Below, piece by piece: positions 3,556-17,597 of a stretch of DNA of 32,978 nt. The position numbers were made by a program, and so were the translations under genes. How positions within the stretch are numbered: position 1 is the first letter of the stretch; the number at the start of each line of letters is the position of its first letter. The stretch is from a virus. The notes beneath the pieces are model-generated. The model was not told the origin of the DNA. It saw only the letters and a list, made by a program, of their open reading frames with translations, and did not search any database. The stretch is taken from positions 1-32,978 of IMG/VR virus record IMGVR_UViG_3300027734_000205; one strand, written 5' to 3'.

Positions 3556-4215
3556 ATGTCAAATTTAACAACATTCTCAGGTGCAAACCTACCTTCAGTA
3601 AAGTCTTTAGCAACAGCATTGCGTACCATTGAAACCGATGTAGGCGCAGCAGGCACCGTCATTATCAAGATGGACAAAACAGGTCATTGGGTATTCGGCG
3701 CAGATCAAACCGAAATCGAAGATACCTCTACTTGGGCAGTTAATCCTTTCTCATTTGTTCATGGCTATATTGCATGGGGTGATGGCGAAGTATTGGCTGA
3801 GAAGATGGTCAGCGTTAGCCAACCATTGCCTGAACTCGATGCAGCGCCTCCTGGTGCTAAGAAGGGTTGGGAAACTCAAGTTGGTATGTCTATCAAATGT
3901 CTTGATGGCGAAGATAAAGGCATGGAAGCCCGTTACACTACCACGTCAGTTGGCGGTAAAAAAGGCGTTCAAGCTTTAGCTGTTGCCATTGCTACGCAAG
4001 TAGAGAAAGATCAAGACAAGCCTGTACCGGTAGTTGAGCTTGGTAAAGAGCATTACACCCACAAGTCGTATGGCCGTATCTATACTCCTGTTTTTAAAGT
4101 ATTGGAATGGGTTGGTATGGATGGTGAAGCTCCAGCAGAAGAAACGCCTAAAGAAATTGAAGCGCCTGTAGCTGTGGAAGCTGAAGCGGCGCCAGTGCGC
4201 CGTCGTCGCGGGTAA
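3556..4215 (+). CDS. Probable ssDNA-binding protein of the replication module (DUF2815-like)
   Basis: This 219-residue protein sits between the DUF2800 nuclease and the family-A polymerase, where phages of this type usually carry a DUF2815-type or other OB-fold ssDNA-binding protein. The body alternates short beta-like segments (VIIKMDKTGHWVFG, FVHGYIAWGDGEVL, GMEARYTTTSVGGKKG), and the tail after residue 195 is rich in Glu, Ala and Pro, like single-strand-binding protein tails, but ends in a basic VRRRRG. I do not recognise a diagnostic motif, so the assignment rests on position, composition and size. Translation is favoured by AAGGAATC upstream of the ATG. It would coat single strands during replication if the inference is right. 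Confidence 0.5.
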   Translation: MSNLTTFSGANLPSVKSLATALRTIETDVGAAGTVIIKMDKTGHWVFGADQTEIEDTSTWAVNPFSFVHGYIAWGDGEVLAEKMVSVSQPLPELDAAPPGAKKGWETQVGMSIKCLDGEDKGMEARYTTTSVGGKKGVQALAVAIATQVEKDQDKPVPVVELGKEHYTHKSYGRIYTPVFKVLEWVGMDGEAPAEETPKEIEAPVAVEAEAAPVRRRRG

Positions 4216-6317: not shown

Positions 6318-8618
6318 ATGAACTTCTTAGAATATATCACAGGATTAGCCCCTGAAGGTGAAACCGCTTTAGTTGTTAGGCAAAAACCACAATTGTCTAA
6401 TAACGGCGAAATGCAAACCCATGCTGATGGCACGATCAAATGCACTTGGCCTGCGTTCTTGCCAACGGCTAAGATCAAGAAAGATTGGGCAATCTACGGC
6501 AATACAGGCTCATTCATCCTTGACCGCTTTGCCGATGGCAAGGTGTCTGCGTCTGCCGCAAACTGTGAATACGTCCTTGTGATGATGTTAGATGACATTG
6601 GCACCAAGTCTAACGAGCCACCGCTTGCGCCTACATGGATCATGGAAACCTCAGAGGGTTCGTATCAATGGGGCTACGCATTTAAAGAGCAACCGACCAA
6701 AGGTGACTTTACCGCAGCCATCAAAGCGATTGCTAAGGCAGGCTACACCGATCCGGGCGCGACCAATGCAGTGCGTAACTTCCGCTTGCCCGGCTCAGTT
6801 AACCTCAAGCCAGGGCGTAATAACTTTGTATCAACATTGGTAGAGTTTCACCCTGAGCGTGAATACAACCTTGAAGATATTTGCACCGCCCTTGATGTTG
6901 TGCCAGATGTTGCTGATACGGCTACAAATGTTGCCATAAGATTAGCTGATACAGGCAAGGATTCAGTTGTTACATGGCTTAACGATCAAGGACTAATCAT
7001 GTCTGGCGTTAATGGTGAGGGTTGGATGGGCATCGTTTGCCCTAATAACGCAGAGCATACCGATGGCAACATTGAAGGTAGGTATAAACCCCTAGATAGA
7101 TCATTCTGTTGTTTGCATGGTCATTGCGTAGACTTTAGCTCACAAATGTTTTTAGATTGGGTAGCGGGTAATGGTGGCCCTGAAGTTGATCACGGCTTGC
7201 GTGATGAGTTACTAGCAGAAAAGATGAATATGGCTTTGTCAAAATTAACCCCAAATGAAGTTTATCGTGATACCGCATCCGAACTGATTGCAGAGGTCGA
7301 GCGTAAAGAATTAGGACGGATCGAGAAAGCTGATTGGTATAAGCGGTTCGCTTACATCCAAGACGATGAGTCCTACTTTGATATGCAAGATAGACGTGAA
7401 GTTAGCCGTCAGACATTTAATGCGTTGTTCCGTCATATCCCTTGCAAGTCTATTCACACCGGGCGCAAGGTGGAGGCATCAATCTGTTTTGATGAGAATA
7501 GGCAAGCCAATGGTGCTAAGGCGCTAGTTGGTGTGACTTACGCCGCCGGTGACGATGTTATCGTGGCTCGTGATGGTGATTTGTTTGGCAATCGTTGGCG
7601 TGACGCAAGACCTGAGCTATCTGGTGCAAAAAATGAGAGCGTTTCCCTGTGGATAGATCACTGTCGGGAGCTTGTACCTGAACAAGCCGAACTAGATCAT
7701 ATTTTTGATGTGATGGCGTTCAAAGTACAAAACCCTAAGATCAAAGTAAACCATGCTGTTCTACACGCGGGTGACGAGGGGTCAGGTAAGGATACATTTT
7801 GGGCGCCATTCATTTGGGCGGTCTGTGGCGATCACCTTAAAAACAGAGGCATCATGGATAACAATTCCGTGAATAGCCAATGGGGTTATCAGCTTGAATC
7901 CGAGATTCTAATTATTAACGAATTAAAAGAGCCTGACGCAGCCACACGCAGACAATTGGCAAACCAACTCAAGCCGATCATTGCCGCCCCGCCTGAGATG
8001 CTTCCAATCAACCGCAAGGGTCTGCACCCATATATGATGGCTAACCGCCTGTTCGTGTTGGCTTTCAGTAATGACCCTGTACCGATTTCATTGGCTAGTC
8101 AGGACAGAAGGTGGTTTTGCGTGTGGAGTACGGCTGAACGCATGGATTCTAAAAAAGCTAAAAAGATTTGGGATTGGTATAGATCGGGAGGGTTTGCCTG
8201 TATAGCAAAATGGCTTATGGATCGGGATGTTAGTCAGTTCAATCCAAGTGCGCCGCCGATGTGGACAGAGTTCAAAGCGAACCTAGTCGAGCATGGCATG
8301 AGTATGGCGGAATCTTACTTAGTTGATATGCTTAAGAATAGAACCGGTGAGTTTTCCAAAGGGGTCATTGGTTCACCTTTCCATAGTCTGTGCGATCGTC
8401 TGGCGGGCCAGGCCCCAAGCGGTGTAAAAGTGCCACAGGCCGCATTGCTACACGCTTTAAAAGAGGCGGGTTGGATTGACTGCGGGCGTATTAAATCGCG
8501 GGAGTTTGATACTAAAAAGCACGTATTTGCTTGCCCTGATATGGCGGATTTAGGTAAATCTGAATTGCGGAGAATGATAGAGGAGAACCCTTTACCCAAG
8601 ATGGTATTAGTTAAGTAA
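6318..8618 (+). CDS. Primase-helicase (prim-pol domain plus SF3-like ATPase, DUF5906 type)
   Basis: This 766-residue protein fuses a primase and a replicative helicase. Residues 1-200 look like an archaeo-eukaryotic primase/RepB-type domain: VLVMMLDD with metal-binding Asp91-Asp93 region, SYQWGYAF, and NFRLPGSVNLKPG near 154-166. Residues 241-270 carry a Cys/His cluster (Cys241, His247, Cys264, Cys265, His267, Cys270) that probably binds zinc. The helicase has Walker A GDEGSGKDT (485-493), Walker B ILIINE (530-535), sensor-like AFSND with Asn585, and DRRW (596-599) as arginine finger. It starts after GAAAGG and ends the replication operon at a two-way terminator. It would unwind DNA and prime synthesis for the polymerase just upstream. 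Confidence 0.9.
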   Translation: MNFLEYITGLAPEGETALVVRQKPQLSNNGEMQTHADGTIKCTWPAFLPTAKIKKDWAIYGNTGSFILDRFADGKVSASAANCEYVLVMMLDDIGTKSNEPPLAPTWIMETSEGSYQWGYAFKEQPTKGDFTAAIKAIAKAGYTDPGATNAVRNFRLPGSVNLKPGRNNFVSTLVEFHPEREYNLEDICTALDVVPDVADTATNVAIRLADTGKDSVVTWLNDQGLIMSGVNGEGWMGIVCPNNAEHTDGNIEGRYKPLDRSFCCLHGHCVDFSSQMFLDWVAGNGGPEVDHGLRDELLAEKMNMALSKLTPNEVYRDTASELIAEVERKELGRIEKADWYKRFAYIQDDESYFDMQDRREVSRQTFNALFRHIPCKSIHTGRKVEASICFDENRQANGAKALVGVTYAAGDDVIVARDGDLFGNRWRDARPELSGAKNESVSLWIDHCRELVPEQAELDHIFDVMAFKVQNPKIKVNHAVLHAGDEGSGKDTFWAPFIWAVCGDHLKNRGIMDNNSVNSQWGYQLESEILIINELKEPDAATRRQLANQLKPIIAAPPEMLPINRKGLHPYMMANRLFVLAFSNDPVPISLASQDRRWFCVWSTAERMDSKKAKKIWDWYRSGGFACIAKWLMDRDVSQFNPSAPPMWTEFKANLVEHGMSMAESYLVDMLKNRTGEFSKGVIGSPFHSLCDRLAGQAPSGVKVPQAALLHALKEAGWIDCGRIKSREFDTKKHVFACPDMADLGKSELRRMIEENPLPKMVLVK

Positions 8619-11109: not shown

Positions 11110-11138
11110 AATGTAAAGGAATGTTTTACGCTTGTCAA
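11110..11138 (-). promoter_or_regulatory. Promoter for the early minus-strand cluster
   Basis: On the minus strand, a perfect TTGACA (11138-11133) is followed by a 17-nt spacer and TACATT (11115-11110). The start of transcription would be near 11103, leaving a leader of about 45 nt. It lies just left of the TGTGGACA repeat hub, so proteins bound there could control it. Confidence 0.6.
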
Positions 11139-11181: not shown

Positions 11182-11518
11182 TGTGGACATTGTGGATAGC
11201 GTGTGGACAACGTTGTGGACAATGTGAAATGAGGTTAGCGCCCATATAAAATCAGCTTGTGGACAATGTGGACAATTATTAATTACCTATTTAATGAATA
11301 CCACATATTTATATAGACCTCTGCGCCAATGTTATAAGTCAGCAACTAAATAGGGGTTGTCCACATTGTCCACCTTGTCCACAATTTTCGCGCCCGCCCC
11401 CGCGTTATTTGCCAAATGTTTTTAAGTTTGTGGACAATGTGGACAATTTGATTTTAGGTTGTCCACAATGTCCACAATTGCATAGCCTCTCGATTGTGGA
11501 TAGTCCACATTGTCCACA
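11182..11518. repeat. Iteron array: TGTGGACA words in both orientations
   Basis: Exact TGTGGACA starts at 11182, 11202, 11214, 11258, 11267, 11429 and 11438; exact TGTCCACA starts at 11358, 11376, 11460, 11469 and 11511. One-base variants lie at 11191 and 11495 (TGTGGATA), 11367 (TGTCCACC) and 11502 (AGTCCACA). Within blocks the step is mostly 9 bp. Copies at 11429-11446 and 11459-11476 face each other as a near-perfect inverted repeat around a 12-nt spacer. TGTGGATA resembles the core of the DnaA box. The pattern fits an origin or cooperative operator. Confidence 0.8.
11275..11330. other. AT-rich core within the iteron array (candidate unwinding element)
   Basis: Between the second and third iteron blocks, about 55 nt are almost entirely A and T (TTATTAATTACC, TTTAATGAATA, CATATTTATATAG). 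Easily melted DNA beside iterons is the usual layout of a theta-type origin. Prediction from composition only. Confidence 0.4.
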
Positions 11519-11844: not shown

Positions 11845-12291
11845 ATGTTCCAAAGCTTCCCCTACGAACCTCGCAAGCTCGAAGCCACCGAAGCGCGGCT
11901 TGAAGCTATCATGCAAGCCTCTAAACTTGGCTTGAAAGGTGACGCTTTAGCTTTAGCGGCTGGCATGACGCCTACCGAGTACCGCCAGTTAGTGTTGTTT
12001 GACCCCATTGCTGAATACGCTGAACTCAAAGGGAGAGCCGAAGGTGAACGTGAAATGGCCGAAGTCTTGCATACTGCTGCAAAAGAAGGCGACACCAAGT
12101 CAGCCCTCGCCATCTTGCAAAACGTCCACGGCTGGGTCGCCAAACAACAACTCTCTATCGATGTTGATCAGCGCATCTCAATCACTGCTGCTCTCGAACA
12201 AGCGCAAGCTAGGGTCATCGACGCTCTCACAAACCAAGAAGCGCAAGTCGTAGAATACAAACCAACCAAAGAGAAACTCAAAGCAGCCTAA
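11845..12291 (+). CDS. Terminase small subunit (putative)
   Basis: I take the ATG at 11845 (148 residues), because the frame further upstream reads only a T-rich non-coding tract as false hydrophobic sequence. The product has an N-terminal helical, helix-turn-helix-like part (ASKLGLKGDALALAAGMTPTEYRQL), the usual DNA-recognising region of small terminases, then a central helix (ELKGRAEGEREMAEVLHTAAK) and an acidic/basic tail. Its TAA is followed at once by the large terminase ATG. It would recognise phage DNA and load the motor. The family match is by position and layout, and the start is uncertain. Confidence 0.75.
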   Translation: MFQSFPYEPRKLEATEARLEAIMQASKLGLKGDALALAAGMTPTEYRQLVLFDPIAEYAELKGRAEGEREMAEVLHTAAKEGDTKSALAILQNVHGWVAKQQLSIDVDQRISITAALEQAQARVIDALTNQEAQVVEYKPTKEKLKAA

Positions 12292-14205: not shown

Positions 14206-14458
14206 TTGTGTTTTAATACGTCAAGACACAGAAAAATTATCTGAGTTAATAGTTTTACCCCAAAATAAATTATTTAGCGGTATCATAGTGGCAATTGGTG
14301 AAGGTAAAAAAAATCCAAAAGGATTTATTGAGCCTATGAACGTCAAAGAAGGCGACCATGTGCTATTCGGTGAGTTTTCCGGGCAAAAGGTCACTGTTGA
14401 TGGCGAAGAATTGTTGATGATGAAAGAGCCAGACGTCATAGGAATATTGGATGCTTAG
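14183..14458 (+). CDS. GroES-like co-chaperonin (Cpn10)
   Basis: This 91-residue protein has the Cpn10 signature: PLSNCVLIR at the N-terminus, a mobile-loop region (KLSELIVLPQ, residues 18-27), GIIVAIGEGK, VKEGDHVLFGEFSG and the C-terminal DVIGIL. It would cap the host GroEL ring and help fold phage proteins, most likely the coat or portal just downstream. No GroEL is encoded here, so the host chaperonin must serve. The mobile loop ends with a hydrophobic IVL, the GroEL-contact feature. It starts in an ATGA overlap and overlaps the HNH gene by 8 nt. Confidence 0.92.
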   Translation: MSLKPLSNCVLIRQDTEKLSELIVLPQNKLFSGIIVAIGEGKKNPKGFIEPMNVKEGDHVLFGEFSGQKVTVDGEELLMMKEPDVIGILDA

Positions 14459-15005
14459 TAGAAAAGAAGCCAAAGCACAAGGATTAAGCAAATACTTTAC
14501 AGAAATACCCTGTAAGTATGGGCATACTTCTGAACGTTTTGTTTCTACTAAAGCTTGCGCCGAATGTAATAAAATAAAAACAACAGCTTGGCGAAGCAAA
14601 AACGCGGTAAAACATAAGCAATTAAGAGCCGAGTATTACCAAAGAAACGCAGATAAATTAAGGCAAATAAAGATTACAAATTACTGGAAAAAGCCTGAAG
14701 AAAATAGAGCTTATTCAGCTAAATATTTGCGTGAAAATCCAGCTAAAGCTATTGCTTACAACGCCAAACGCTATGCAAGTAAAAAGCAACGCACACCCGC
14801 TTGGTTAACTTTGGTTGATTTTGAGCGTATGGAAAATGAATATAGACTTGCAGCATTGCAAACTAAAATAACGGGGACAATATGGCACGTTGACCATATA
14901 ATTCCGTTACAAGGCAAGAATGTATGTGGGCTGCACGTCCCTACTAATTTGAAAGCTATTCCTGGTATGGACAATCTAAGAAAGAGTAATCATTATGGCC
15001 TATGA
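14451..15005 (+). CDS. HNH endonuclease
   Basis: This 184-residue protein has an N-terminal zinc-binding pattern (Cys21, His25, Cys36, Cys39 in CKYGHTSERFVSTKACAEC) and a C-terminal HNH motif: WHVDHIIPLQG (His146-Asp148-His149), VCGLHVPTN (Asn166) and LRKSNH. The middle is lysine-rich and helical. AGGAA lies 8 nt upstream of the start. It overlaps GroES and the portal by 8 and 11 nt, so it is neatly fitted in the operon rather than freely inserted. It may be a homing-type nuclease or an accessory to packaging, as known for HNH proteins beside terminases. The family is clear, the role inferred. Confidence 0.88.
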   Translation: MLSRKEAKAQGLSKYFTEIPCKYGHTSERFVSTKACAECNKIKTTAWRSKNAVKHKQLRAEYYQRNADKLRQIKITNYWKKPEENRAYSAKYLRENPAKAIAYNAKRYASKKQRTPAWLTLVDFERMENEYRLAALQTKITGTIWHVDHIIPLQGKNVCGLHVPTNLKAIPGMDNLRKSNHYGL

Positions 15006-17238
15006 TCAGTCATCCATGAATATTGTCGGCAAAGTAGCCAACGTAGGTAGTAACCCTACTACTACTCCAAATGAGCAGTCCGATACGCTTGCCACCATGC
15101 GCCATCGCTTTCAAATGGCAATGTCTGCGTACTCTGAATCAAGAGAAGATGAGCTTGATGACCTTCGGTTTATGGCTGGTTCGCCAGACAATCAATGGCA
15201 ATGGCCTGCTGACGTATTGGCAACGCGTGGCTCTGTTCAAGGACAAACTATCAACGCAAGGCCTTGTCTTACAATTAACAAACTGCCACAGCACGTTCGT
15301 CAAGTTACAAACGAACAACGTCAAAATCGACCCTCTGGAAAAGTCATTCCAGCCGACGATAAAGGCGACATTGAAGTAGCTGAAGTGTTTGAAGGCATGG
15401 TTCGTCACATTGAATATATGTCAGATGCTGATGTTGTCTATGACACTGCTTGCGAAAACCAAGTGACTTATGGTGAAGGCTATTTCCGCATATTGACTGA
15501 GTTTTGTTACGATGATTCATTTGACCAGGACATTCGTTTAGGTCGTATTCGTAACGCATTTAGCGTTTACATGGATCCAATGATCCAAGACCCTGCGGGT
15601 TGCGACGCTGAATGGTGTTTTATCAGTCAAGACCTAGAAAAGCAAGAATATGAACGGCTATTTCCTAATGCCGCGCCCATTACTTCCATTATGTCCCAAG
15701 GTGTAGGCGATGAATCCCTTTCCCAATGGATAAATGAAAACACTATTCGTATTGTTGAGTATTTTTATTACACTCATACCCCAACTAAGCTTAATTTGTA
15801 CCCAGGCAATCAATCATTTTATGATGGCAGCCCTGAAGATAAAAATATGAAAGTAATGGGCTTAAAACCCATTAAAACTCGCACCGTCGATGTTAAAAAA
15901 GTTATGTGGATGAAAACCAATGGCTACGAAGTTCTTGAAGAACAAGAATGGGCAGGCAAATGGATCCCTGTAATTCGCGTTGTAGGTAATGAATTTGAAG
16001 TAGATGGACGTATTTTTGTATCTGGTTTAGTTAGAAACGCTAAAGATGCACAACGTATGTACAACTATTGGGTATCACAAGAAGCAGAAATGCTTGCATT
16101 GGCTCCAAAAGCACCATTTATCGGTTATGGCGGTCAATTTGAAGGCTATGAAACTCAATGGAAAACGGCCAATACAACTAACTGGCCGTATTTAGAAGTT
16201 AATCCTGATGTAACTGATGGAATGGGCGCAACATTGCCCCTACCGCAGCGCGCCCCACCTCCATTAGCTCAAACAGGTCTAATTCAAGCCAAAATGGGTG
16301 CTAGTGACGATATTAAGTCCACAACAGGGCAATATGACTCTAGTTTAGGTGCTACAAGCAATGAGCGTTCAGGTAAAGCCATTCTTGCGCGTGAGCGTCA
16401 AGGTGATGTTGGTACATTCCACTACGGCGATAACCTTACCAAAGCAATTCGTTTTGCAACACGTCAATTAATTGATTTGATTCCTAAAATTTACGATACC
16501 GAGCGTATTGCTCGTATAGTAGGTGTTGATGGCGAAGTGTCTATGGTTAAAATTAATCCTGAACAACCTGAGCCAGTTAAAAAAATTACCGGCCAAACTG
16601 GAATTGTGATTGAAAAAATTTATAACCCTAGCGTGGGTGTGTATGATGTGGTCGCTACAACTGGCCCAGGCTACATGACTAAACGCCAAGAAGCTCTTGA
16701 AGCTATGGCGCAAATTTTGCAAGGCAACCCTGAGCTATGGAAAGTGGCTGGCGATCTATTTGTTAAAAATATGGATTGGCCTGGCGCGCAAGAGATGGCT
16801 AAACGCCTTGAAAAGACGATTGATCCTAAATTGATTGCTGATACTGACGAAGATCCAGCATTGCAAGCTGCACAACAACAAATGCAAGCAATGGGGCAAG
16901 AAATGGAACAAATGCACCAAATGTTGCAAAACGTGGGTAAATCCATTGAAATGCAAGAGTTAGAACGCAAAGACTTTGAAGCGCAAATCAAACTATTTGA
17001 TGCTGAAACTAAGCGTCTTACCGCTGTTCAAGCTTCTATGTCACCTGAACAAATCCAAGATATTGTTATGGGAACAGTGCATGGAATGATGGTAAACGGC
17101 GATCTTGTAACTGAAATGCAACGTGATAACGCCATGGATATGCAAGAGGAAGATCAAAAAGAACAACAGATGGCGCAGCCAATGCAGCCTCAAGGCGCTA
17201 TGCCCCCACAAATGCCACCACAAGGGATGCCACAATGA
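14995..17238 (+). CDS. P22-like portal protein
   Basis: This 747-residue protein is close in length to the P22 portal (about 725). The N-terminus reads ESREDELDDLRFMAGSPDNQ and then a conserved INKLPQHVRQVTNEQRQNRP, the signature of the P22-type portal family. After residue about 618 a long Gln/Met-rich coiled coil appears, as in the P22 portal barrel, followed by a Pro/Gln/Met tail ending PPQMPPQGMPQ. It forms the dodecameric DNA gate at the capsid vertex and docks the terminase. It overlaps the HNH gene and the next gene (ATGA). The family assignment is confident. Confidence 0.93.
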   Translation: MAYDQSSMNIVGKVANVGSNPTTTPNEQSDTLATMRHRFQMAMSAYSESREDELDDLRFMAGSPDNQWQWPADVLATRGSVQGQTINARPCLTINKLPQHVRQVTNEQRQNRPSGKVIPADDKGDIEVAEVFEGMVRHIEYMSDADVVYDTACENQVTYGEGYFRILTEFCYDDSFDQDIRLGRIRNAFSVYMDPMIQDPAGCDAEWCFISQDLEKQEYERLFPNAAPITSIMSQGVGDESLSQWINENTIRIVEYFYYTHTPTKLNLYPGNQSFYDGSPEDKNMKVMGLKPIKTRTVDVKKVMWMKTNGYEVLEEQEWAGKWIPVIRVVGNEFEVDGRIFVSGLVRNAKDAQRMYNYWVSQEAEMLALAPKAPFIGYGGQFEGYETQWKTANTTNWPYLEVNPDVTDGMGATLPLPQRAPPPLAQTGLIQAKMGASDDIKSTTGQYDSSLGATSNERSGKAILARERQGDVGTFHYGDNLTKAIRFATRQLIDLIPKIYDTERIARIVGVDGEVSMVKINPEQPEPVKKITGQTGIVIEKIYNPSVGVYDVVATTGPGYMTKRQEALEAMAQILQGNPELWKVAGDLFVKNMDWPGAQEMAKRLEKTIDPKLIADTDEDPALQAAQQQMQAMGQEMEQMHQMLQNVGKSIEMQELERKDFEAQIKLFDAETKRLTAVQASMSPEQIQDIVMGTVHGMMVNGDLVTEMQRDNAMDMQEEDQKEQQMAQPMQPQGAMPPQMPPQGMPQ

Positions 17239-17597
17239 AAGCCGCTGATTTTGTAGGAATTTTATTCTTAGCCCGTGATGTAACCCATTCGGTTCATCTA
17301 AACACGCGTAGTTATGCTAAACATAAGGCTTTGCAAAAATTTTACGAAAGTATTATTGACCTTGCAGACTCATTTGCCGAGGCATATCAGGGACGGCACG
17401 GTTTGATTGGCCCAGTTAGTTTAATGTCTGCCAAAAAGACTAGCAATGTCATTGAATTTTTAGAATCACAACTTGCTGAAATTGAATCTGTCAGATATGA
17501 TGTCTGTGATAAGACAGATGCGCCTTTACAGAATTTAATAGACGGTATCATTGAGCTATACCTATCAACTCTGTATAAGCTCAGGTTCTTAGCATAA
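17235..17597 (+). CDS. DUF5856-like hypothetical protein (120 aa)
   Basis: This 120-residue helical protein contains LARDVTHSVHLNTRSYAKHK, ALQKFYESIIDLADSFAEAY and QGRHGLIGP. From memory this matches DUF5856, a group of helical phage proteins that look ferritin-like in layout (H..HW.T.SYA.H.AL..FY). The His and Glu spacing could bind a metal, but the residues are not proven. It overlaps the portal stop by ATGA and sits in the head-gene block. Function unknown. Confidence 0.65.
   Translation: MKAADFVGILFLARDVTHSVHLNTRSYAKHKALQKFYESIIDLADSFAEAYQGRHGLIGPVSLMSAKKTSNVIEFLESQLAEIESVRYDVCDKTDAPLQNLIDGIIELYLSTLYKLRFLA

Follow-up and report, generated by a model that had tools for sequence, protein, structure and literature searches.

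The iteron array located at positions 11182–11518 of the window, which is an entire IMG/VR contig of 32,978 nt, is very probably the replication origin of the phage. We infer that it is a self-loading origin, that it is bound by the C-terminal domain of the phage's own primase-helicase and that replication fires there. The best explanation of the covariation found among relatives is that residues 726, 728 and 731 of the primase-helicase are the likely specificity determinants for the word of the array.

The iteron array and its genomic position

The window contains a phage with a P22-like portal (PF16510, Pfam). Its replication block encodes a DUF2800 nuclease-like protein, a protein which from its position we take to be DUF2815-like (Pfam gave no match), PolA and then the primase-helicase (6318–8618, + strand). 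This last gene is followed by small leftward genes, the array, the terminase small subunit gene terS (11845–12291, + strand; named from its position and the neighbouring TerL), terL and the head genes. A megablast search with the right part of the contig found no close DNA relative among named phages. By protein, the two nearest named records were MW202483.1 (primase-helicase 55%, TerL 72%) and OR003940.1 (TerL 65%).

The 8-bp word TGTGGACA was present in 12 exact and four one-mismatch copies within 11182–11518, and only two copies, at 8260 and 24959, were found in the other 32.6 kb of the contig. Dinucleotide shuffling gave an expected count of 0.94 per whole window, and no shuffle reached 14 copies. 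The near copies were located at 11191 and 11495 (TGTGGATA), 11367 (GGTGGACA) and 11502 (TGTGGACT), and the steps from word to word were mostly 9 bp. The left iteron set (11182–11274, + strand) consisted of TGTGGACA at 11182, 11202, 11214, 11258 and 11267 together with the variant at 11191, all in a single orientation. An AT-rich gap (11275–11357; 70% AT versus 56% in the window), a candidate unwinding element, separated it from the mirrored right set (11358–11383, − strand), with words at 11358, 11367 (variant) and 11376 in 9-bp steps. Further to the right, we found an inverted pair of doublets (11428–11477), in which the words at 11429 and 11438 face those at 11460 and 11469 and the arms (11428–11446 and 11459–11477) showed 95% complementarity, and a last block (11495–11518) with variants at 11495 (+) and 11502 (−) and an exact word at 11511 (−). 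The orientation of the words was thus ordered: the six on the left side of the gap shared one direction and the first three beyond it had the opposite one, followed by the inverted pair and the mixed block. A first-pass annotation of this DNA had described 12 exact and four near copies in about 340 nt, mostly 9-bp steps and an almost palindromic facing pair, and our counts, the shuffle test and the arm complementarity agree with that description. The AT-rich stretch that it had noticed between the blocks (11275–11330) lies within the gap at 11275–11357.

The array lies ahead of terS and just behind a leftward promoter-like site (TTGACA-17-TACATT, 11110–11138, − strand), which adjoins it and was identified as a sigma70-like consensus match only. 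GC skew, proposed earlier as a check of the origin, followed gene direction in this contig, gave no origin signal and was uninformative.

Array words differ between close relatives

Relatives were viral contigs retrieved with TerL, with the word and with three primase-helicases. These contigs are metagenomic, duplicates were dropped by identical array only, and some word classes were refined after a first look. An array was present at the matching position in the relatives, mostly 300–800 bp before terS. Conservation of word and spacing in related phages had been suggested as a check of the array; its position was indeed kept, but the words differed between relatives, even at 93–95% TerL identity. 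Arrays of close relatives were built of TGACAATT, TGACTAAC, TGACCCAA, TGACTCACA, TGGCAATA and others, with the common shape TGNC followed by variable bases. In relatives with the window's word, the 9-bp step was again dominant (204 same-strand neighbours, with 10 cases of the next commonest step). In 186 arrays of relatives, most words left of the AT-rich gap shared one orientation (620/783), and most of those to its right had the opposite one (1009/1270). Because we took the most AT-rich gap of each array, selection biases the AT content of the gap but not the orientation of the words.

The earlier suggestion that host DnaA initiates replication here was based on an eight-of-nine-base match to the DnaA box complement. 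The likeness itself holds, since the two TGTGGATA copies match 8/9 bases of TGTGGATAA and TGTGGACAA is one base off that complement; some relatives with the window's word also carry TTATCCACA (0.6 per array). However, TTWTNCACA is absent from the window array and from 84 of 91 arrays built of other words. Moreover, host DnaA cannot account for the arrays because words unlike the DnaA box are used by close relatives. Word switching and the lack of boxes rule out host DnaA as a general explanation, and as the initiator at the window array it has almost no chance of being right.

Three residues of the primase-helicase track the word

We tested each alignment column of each protein against the word class. 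The top two columns of all proteins were located in the C-terminus of the primase-helicase (normalised mutual information of 0.69 and 0.54), and TerS, TerL, PolA, the DUF2815-like protein, the portal and the SitrR-named gene all showed 0.28 or less. A label-free screen compared 10 phage proteins with the 6-mer spectra of the arrays, with correction for overall identity. The top residues of the primase-helicase were D731 (r = 0.60), K726 (0.45) and R728 (0.38); the other 138 columns of the tail reached at most 0.25, with a median of 0.02 for all 141. Outside this triple, a single column, in the portal, reached 0.38, and a cluster comparable to K726/R728/D731 was absent from terminase, polymerase, SSB-like and the other proteins screened. 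The codons of K726-S-R-E-F-D731 occupy 8493–8510 (+ strand).

The K-R-D triple was present in 45/45 genomes with the window's word, and arrays of genomes encoding K-R-D contained TGTCCACA in 85 of 86 cases. Other triples were associated with other words: A-G-Q with TGACCCAA (12/12 arrays), A-H-P with TGACAATT (8/8), A-A-M with TGGCAATA (6/6) and M-R-T with TGACTAAC. The covariation, which extends across about 120 relatives, supports two suggestions of the first-pass annotation, namely that the array is a candidate origin and that the primase-helicase is a candidate binder.

These screens also bear on whether the words form a packaging site bound by TerS. The terS gene starts about 330 bp right of the array, and TerS varies more than TerL among relatives, both of which favour this reading. 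No column of TerS, however, followed the word: the highest mutual information was 0.16 and the highest label-free r 0.13. A pac site read by TerS was rejected for the lack of word-tracking residues, and we consider it very unlikely.

Close pairs, trees and predictions

As a control, we compared close pairs of genomes, which shared 85% identity or more in the first ∼640 residues of the primase-helicase. When the words of a pair were different, the triple differed in 396 of 397 cases, including pairs 99% identical over these residues; when the words were equal, the triple was equal in 555 of 583. On the tree of the first ∼640 residues the word had switched at least 24 times, and tree-independent pairs for the window's word agreed in 14/14 cases (p = 0.00012). 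Independent pairs from the TerL tree agreed for two other word classes as well (8/8 and 10/10).

Word predictions were recorded before new loci were fetched. An array that reached the threshold was present at 31 of the 45 predictable loci, and the predicted word was right in 29 of these arrays. The strict blind score is 29/45, because the remaining 14 loci had no array reaching the threshold for the words then defined; most of them carry a TGACTCAC/TGACCCAC variant that was recognised only after the predictions. The two blind-test misses (L403 and L408), and also L388, contained a degenerate mix of words akin to the predicted one. The word of a Rhodoferax MAG contig fetched later (L417) also fits its triple.

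Exchange of the primase-helicase tail and the array as a cassette

In switched pairs, the 5′ half of the primase-helicase gene had high DNA identity (97–99% in the closest pairs). Divergence extended from the 3′ third of this gene across the early genes to the array, which it included, and identity was high again at terS, the right border of the exchanged cassette. The 3′ part of the primase-helicase gene thus moves with the early genes and the array as one cassette, and some correlation between triple and word is expected from linkage alone. Under linkage alone, however, tracking of the word would be expected throughout the tail and in some early gene. It was confined to three of the 141 C-terminal columns, and none of the early ORF families was universal. 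Such a sharp signal, and the fact that identical triple–word pairs recur in distant backgrounds, argue against an account based on linkage only.

The exchange of the entire interval as a single block would also fit a reader encoded by one of the small early genes that separate the primase gene from the array, with the primase tail merely hitch-hiking, and a protein of the early cluster had been named earlier as a candidate binder. Against this, no ORF family of the interval was found in all genomes, the largest being present in 114 of 178 and missing from several word classes, and it is three wing residues of the primase tail, not the tail as a whole, that track the word. An early protein as the reader is thus highly improbable.

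Predicted structure of the primase-helicase

The primase-helicase, which we propose as the initiator reading the iterons, consists of an AEP-type primase domain followed by an AAA+ helicase (Pfam RepB_primase and DUF5906; Foldseek). With the full protein, Foldseek matched the C-terminal region of NrS-1 PrimPol (E 4.9e-15) and also the SaPI5 primase-helicase 7ola; further matches were pox and ASFV primase-helicases (ASFV PrimPol) and S-2L PrimPol. NCBIfam has no model for this protein. The C-terminal part (residues 600–766; 8115–8615, + strand) is predicted to form a winged-helix origin-reading domain. In the tail model, of moderate confidence (pLDDT 75), residues 726, 728 and 731 are located in the loop of a beta-hairpin that forms the tip of the predicted wing. 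The structural matches of this model were generic winged helices (best Z 6.3), the P4 origin-binding domain not being among them, although the tail may still have that fold, and a sequence profile of the tail gave no credible match against PDB sequences.

DISCUSSION

A self-loading origin would be the simplest account of these observations, and we infer for it physical binding, melting, loading and a start of replication at the array. The C-terminal winged-helix domain of the primase-helicase would bind the 9-bp words, with specificity set by the wing-tip residues K726, R728 and D731, other residues in relatives corresponding to other words. The mirrored word sets would position two helicase rings at the flanks of the AT-rich stretch, which would melt and allow the rings to load themselves, and the attached primase could then start synthesis.

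The principle is already known from P4 alpha, SaPI/PICI, PLE RepA and geminivirus Rep. PICI origins always have an AT-rich region with an iteron set on each side (PMC6092414), and SaPI Rep helicases recognise iterons by their C-terminal domain and are apparently bound as two hexamers (PMC7581432). The window and most of the 186 arrays share the short iterons in two sets around an AT-rich gap, and the fold match to SaPI5 7ola adds to the likeness. SaPI origins, however, adjoin the initiator gene, whereas here the array lies 2.6 kb away (gene end 8618, array start 11182) with early genes between. For this reason we describe the window array as probably working like a PICI origin and do not file it as one. 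Also unlike SaPI/PICI, the present system is located in a phage with a P22-type portal, its own PolA and structural genes, and it shows many word specificities governed by a code of few residues.

Alternatively, the main effect of binding by the primase-helicase, or by another factor, might be to regulate the late operon and the leftward early promoter next to the array. The promoter-like site at 11138–11110 directly adjoins the array, which is situated between divergent gene blocks. Nevertheless, the proposed reader is a replication enzyme, the mirrored two-set layout around the gap matches PICI origins, and 12–16 words are many for an operator, so we regard control of transcription as an unlikely main function. 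It could be an additional role of the array, a side effect that is conceivable because the array adjoins the early promoter, although no observation points to it in particular.

Other known systems resemble the proposed origin in part. P4 alpha is a primase-helicase whose C-terminal winged-helix domain binds origin repeats (PMC4234260, PMC10516667), as the predicted winged helix would do here. The P4 primase is, however, of the Toprim type (PMC4234260), whereas the window protein has a RepB_primase/AEP-like N-terminus (Pfam), and unlike the P4 satellite phage this phage has one array only. In the PLE satellites of Vibrio cholerae, the DNA-binding domain of RepA_N covaries with the iterons of the origin and is swapped together with them as a module, replication needs a cognate RepA_N–origin pair, and an origin-directed nuclease has been proposed to drive origin swapping (PMC8263062). 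RepA_N differs in that it is not a helicase, its iterons are semi-palindromes of about 30 bp, and two specificity groups are reported versus about ten here. Geminivirus Rep likewise combines a fixed array position, diverse words among close relatives and a matching initiator (PMC12548392), but geminiviruses are ssDNA viruses with a rolling-circle Rep that is unrelated to the window protein. NrS-1 PrimPol is the best structural match to the helicase half; the available text on its Tail domain describes a novel fold and does not report origin reading (PMC7102993).

Our literature search found no paper describing this array family. As far as the literature searched goes, the three-residue code, the number of specificities in one phage group and the exchange of a cassette together with early genes appear to be new. 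Tentatively, the wing triple may constitute a residue-to-base code that can be read off the protein and that a widespread group of freshwater phages uses for orthogonal (private) origins; co-infecting relatives, satellites or origin-cutting nucleases might then select repeated exchange of the initiator tail and the array, as in plasmid incompatibility groups. The results suggest a likely function for the C-terminal part of the uncharacterised PrimPol/DUF5906 helicase family and would make origins of uncultured phages predictable from protein sequence. The about ten natural initiator–origin pairs, with some proteins 99% identical elsewhere, could be used to study the evolution of origin specificity and to test for mutual exclusion of replication between close relatives.

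Additional observations

Some relatives (L019, L022, L060, L078, L086 and L104) carry a second repeat family between the array and terS, absent from the window, which consists of AAGTTAGT...CACTAACTT imperfect palindromes with about 7 copies of AAGTTAGT. In L257, TGACCGGC is repeated 13 times in about 105 bp, 160–270 bp before terS. Both named phages have word arrays: MW202483.1 (L411) has a TGTAAACAT/TGTTTACAT array at the matching place (7740–8010) and yet another recognition loop, CFAPEL, in its primase-helicase, and OR003940.1 (L412, phage DSL-LC05), annotated with a bifunctional DNA primase/polymerase, has an array of TGACCCACTGGGT-type words before terS (3600–4120).

The window further encodes a C5 cytosine DNA methylase (PF00145, 693–2042), which a minority of relatives have. 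An HNH-like ORF (14451–15005), named by the look of its sequence without a family match, is flanked by two conserved genes and occurs in few relatives, a rarity that suggests a mobile insertion. A homologue of phrog_858, 'starvation-inducible transcriptional regulator', is encoded within the head operon (17235–17597) and is conserved in relatives.
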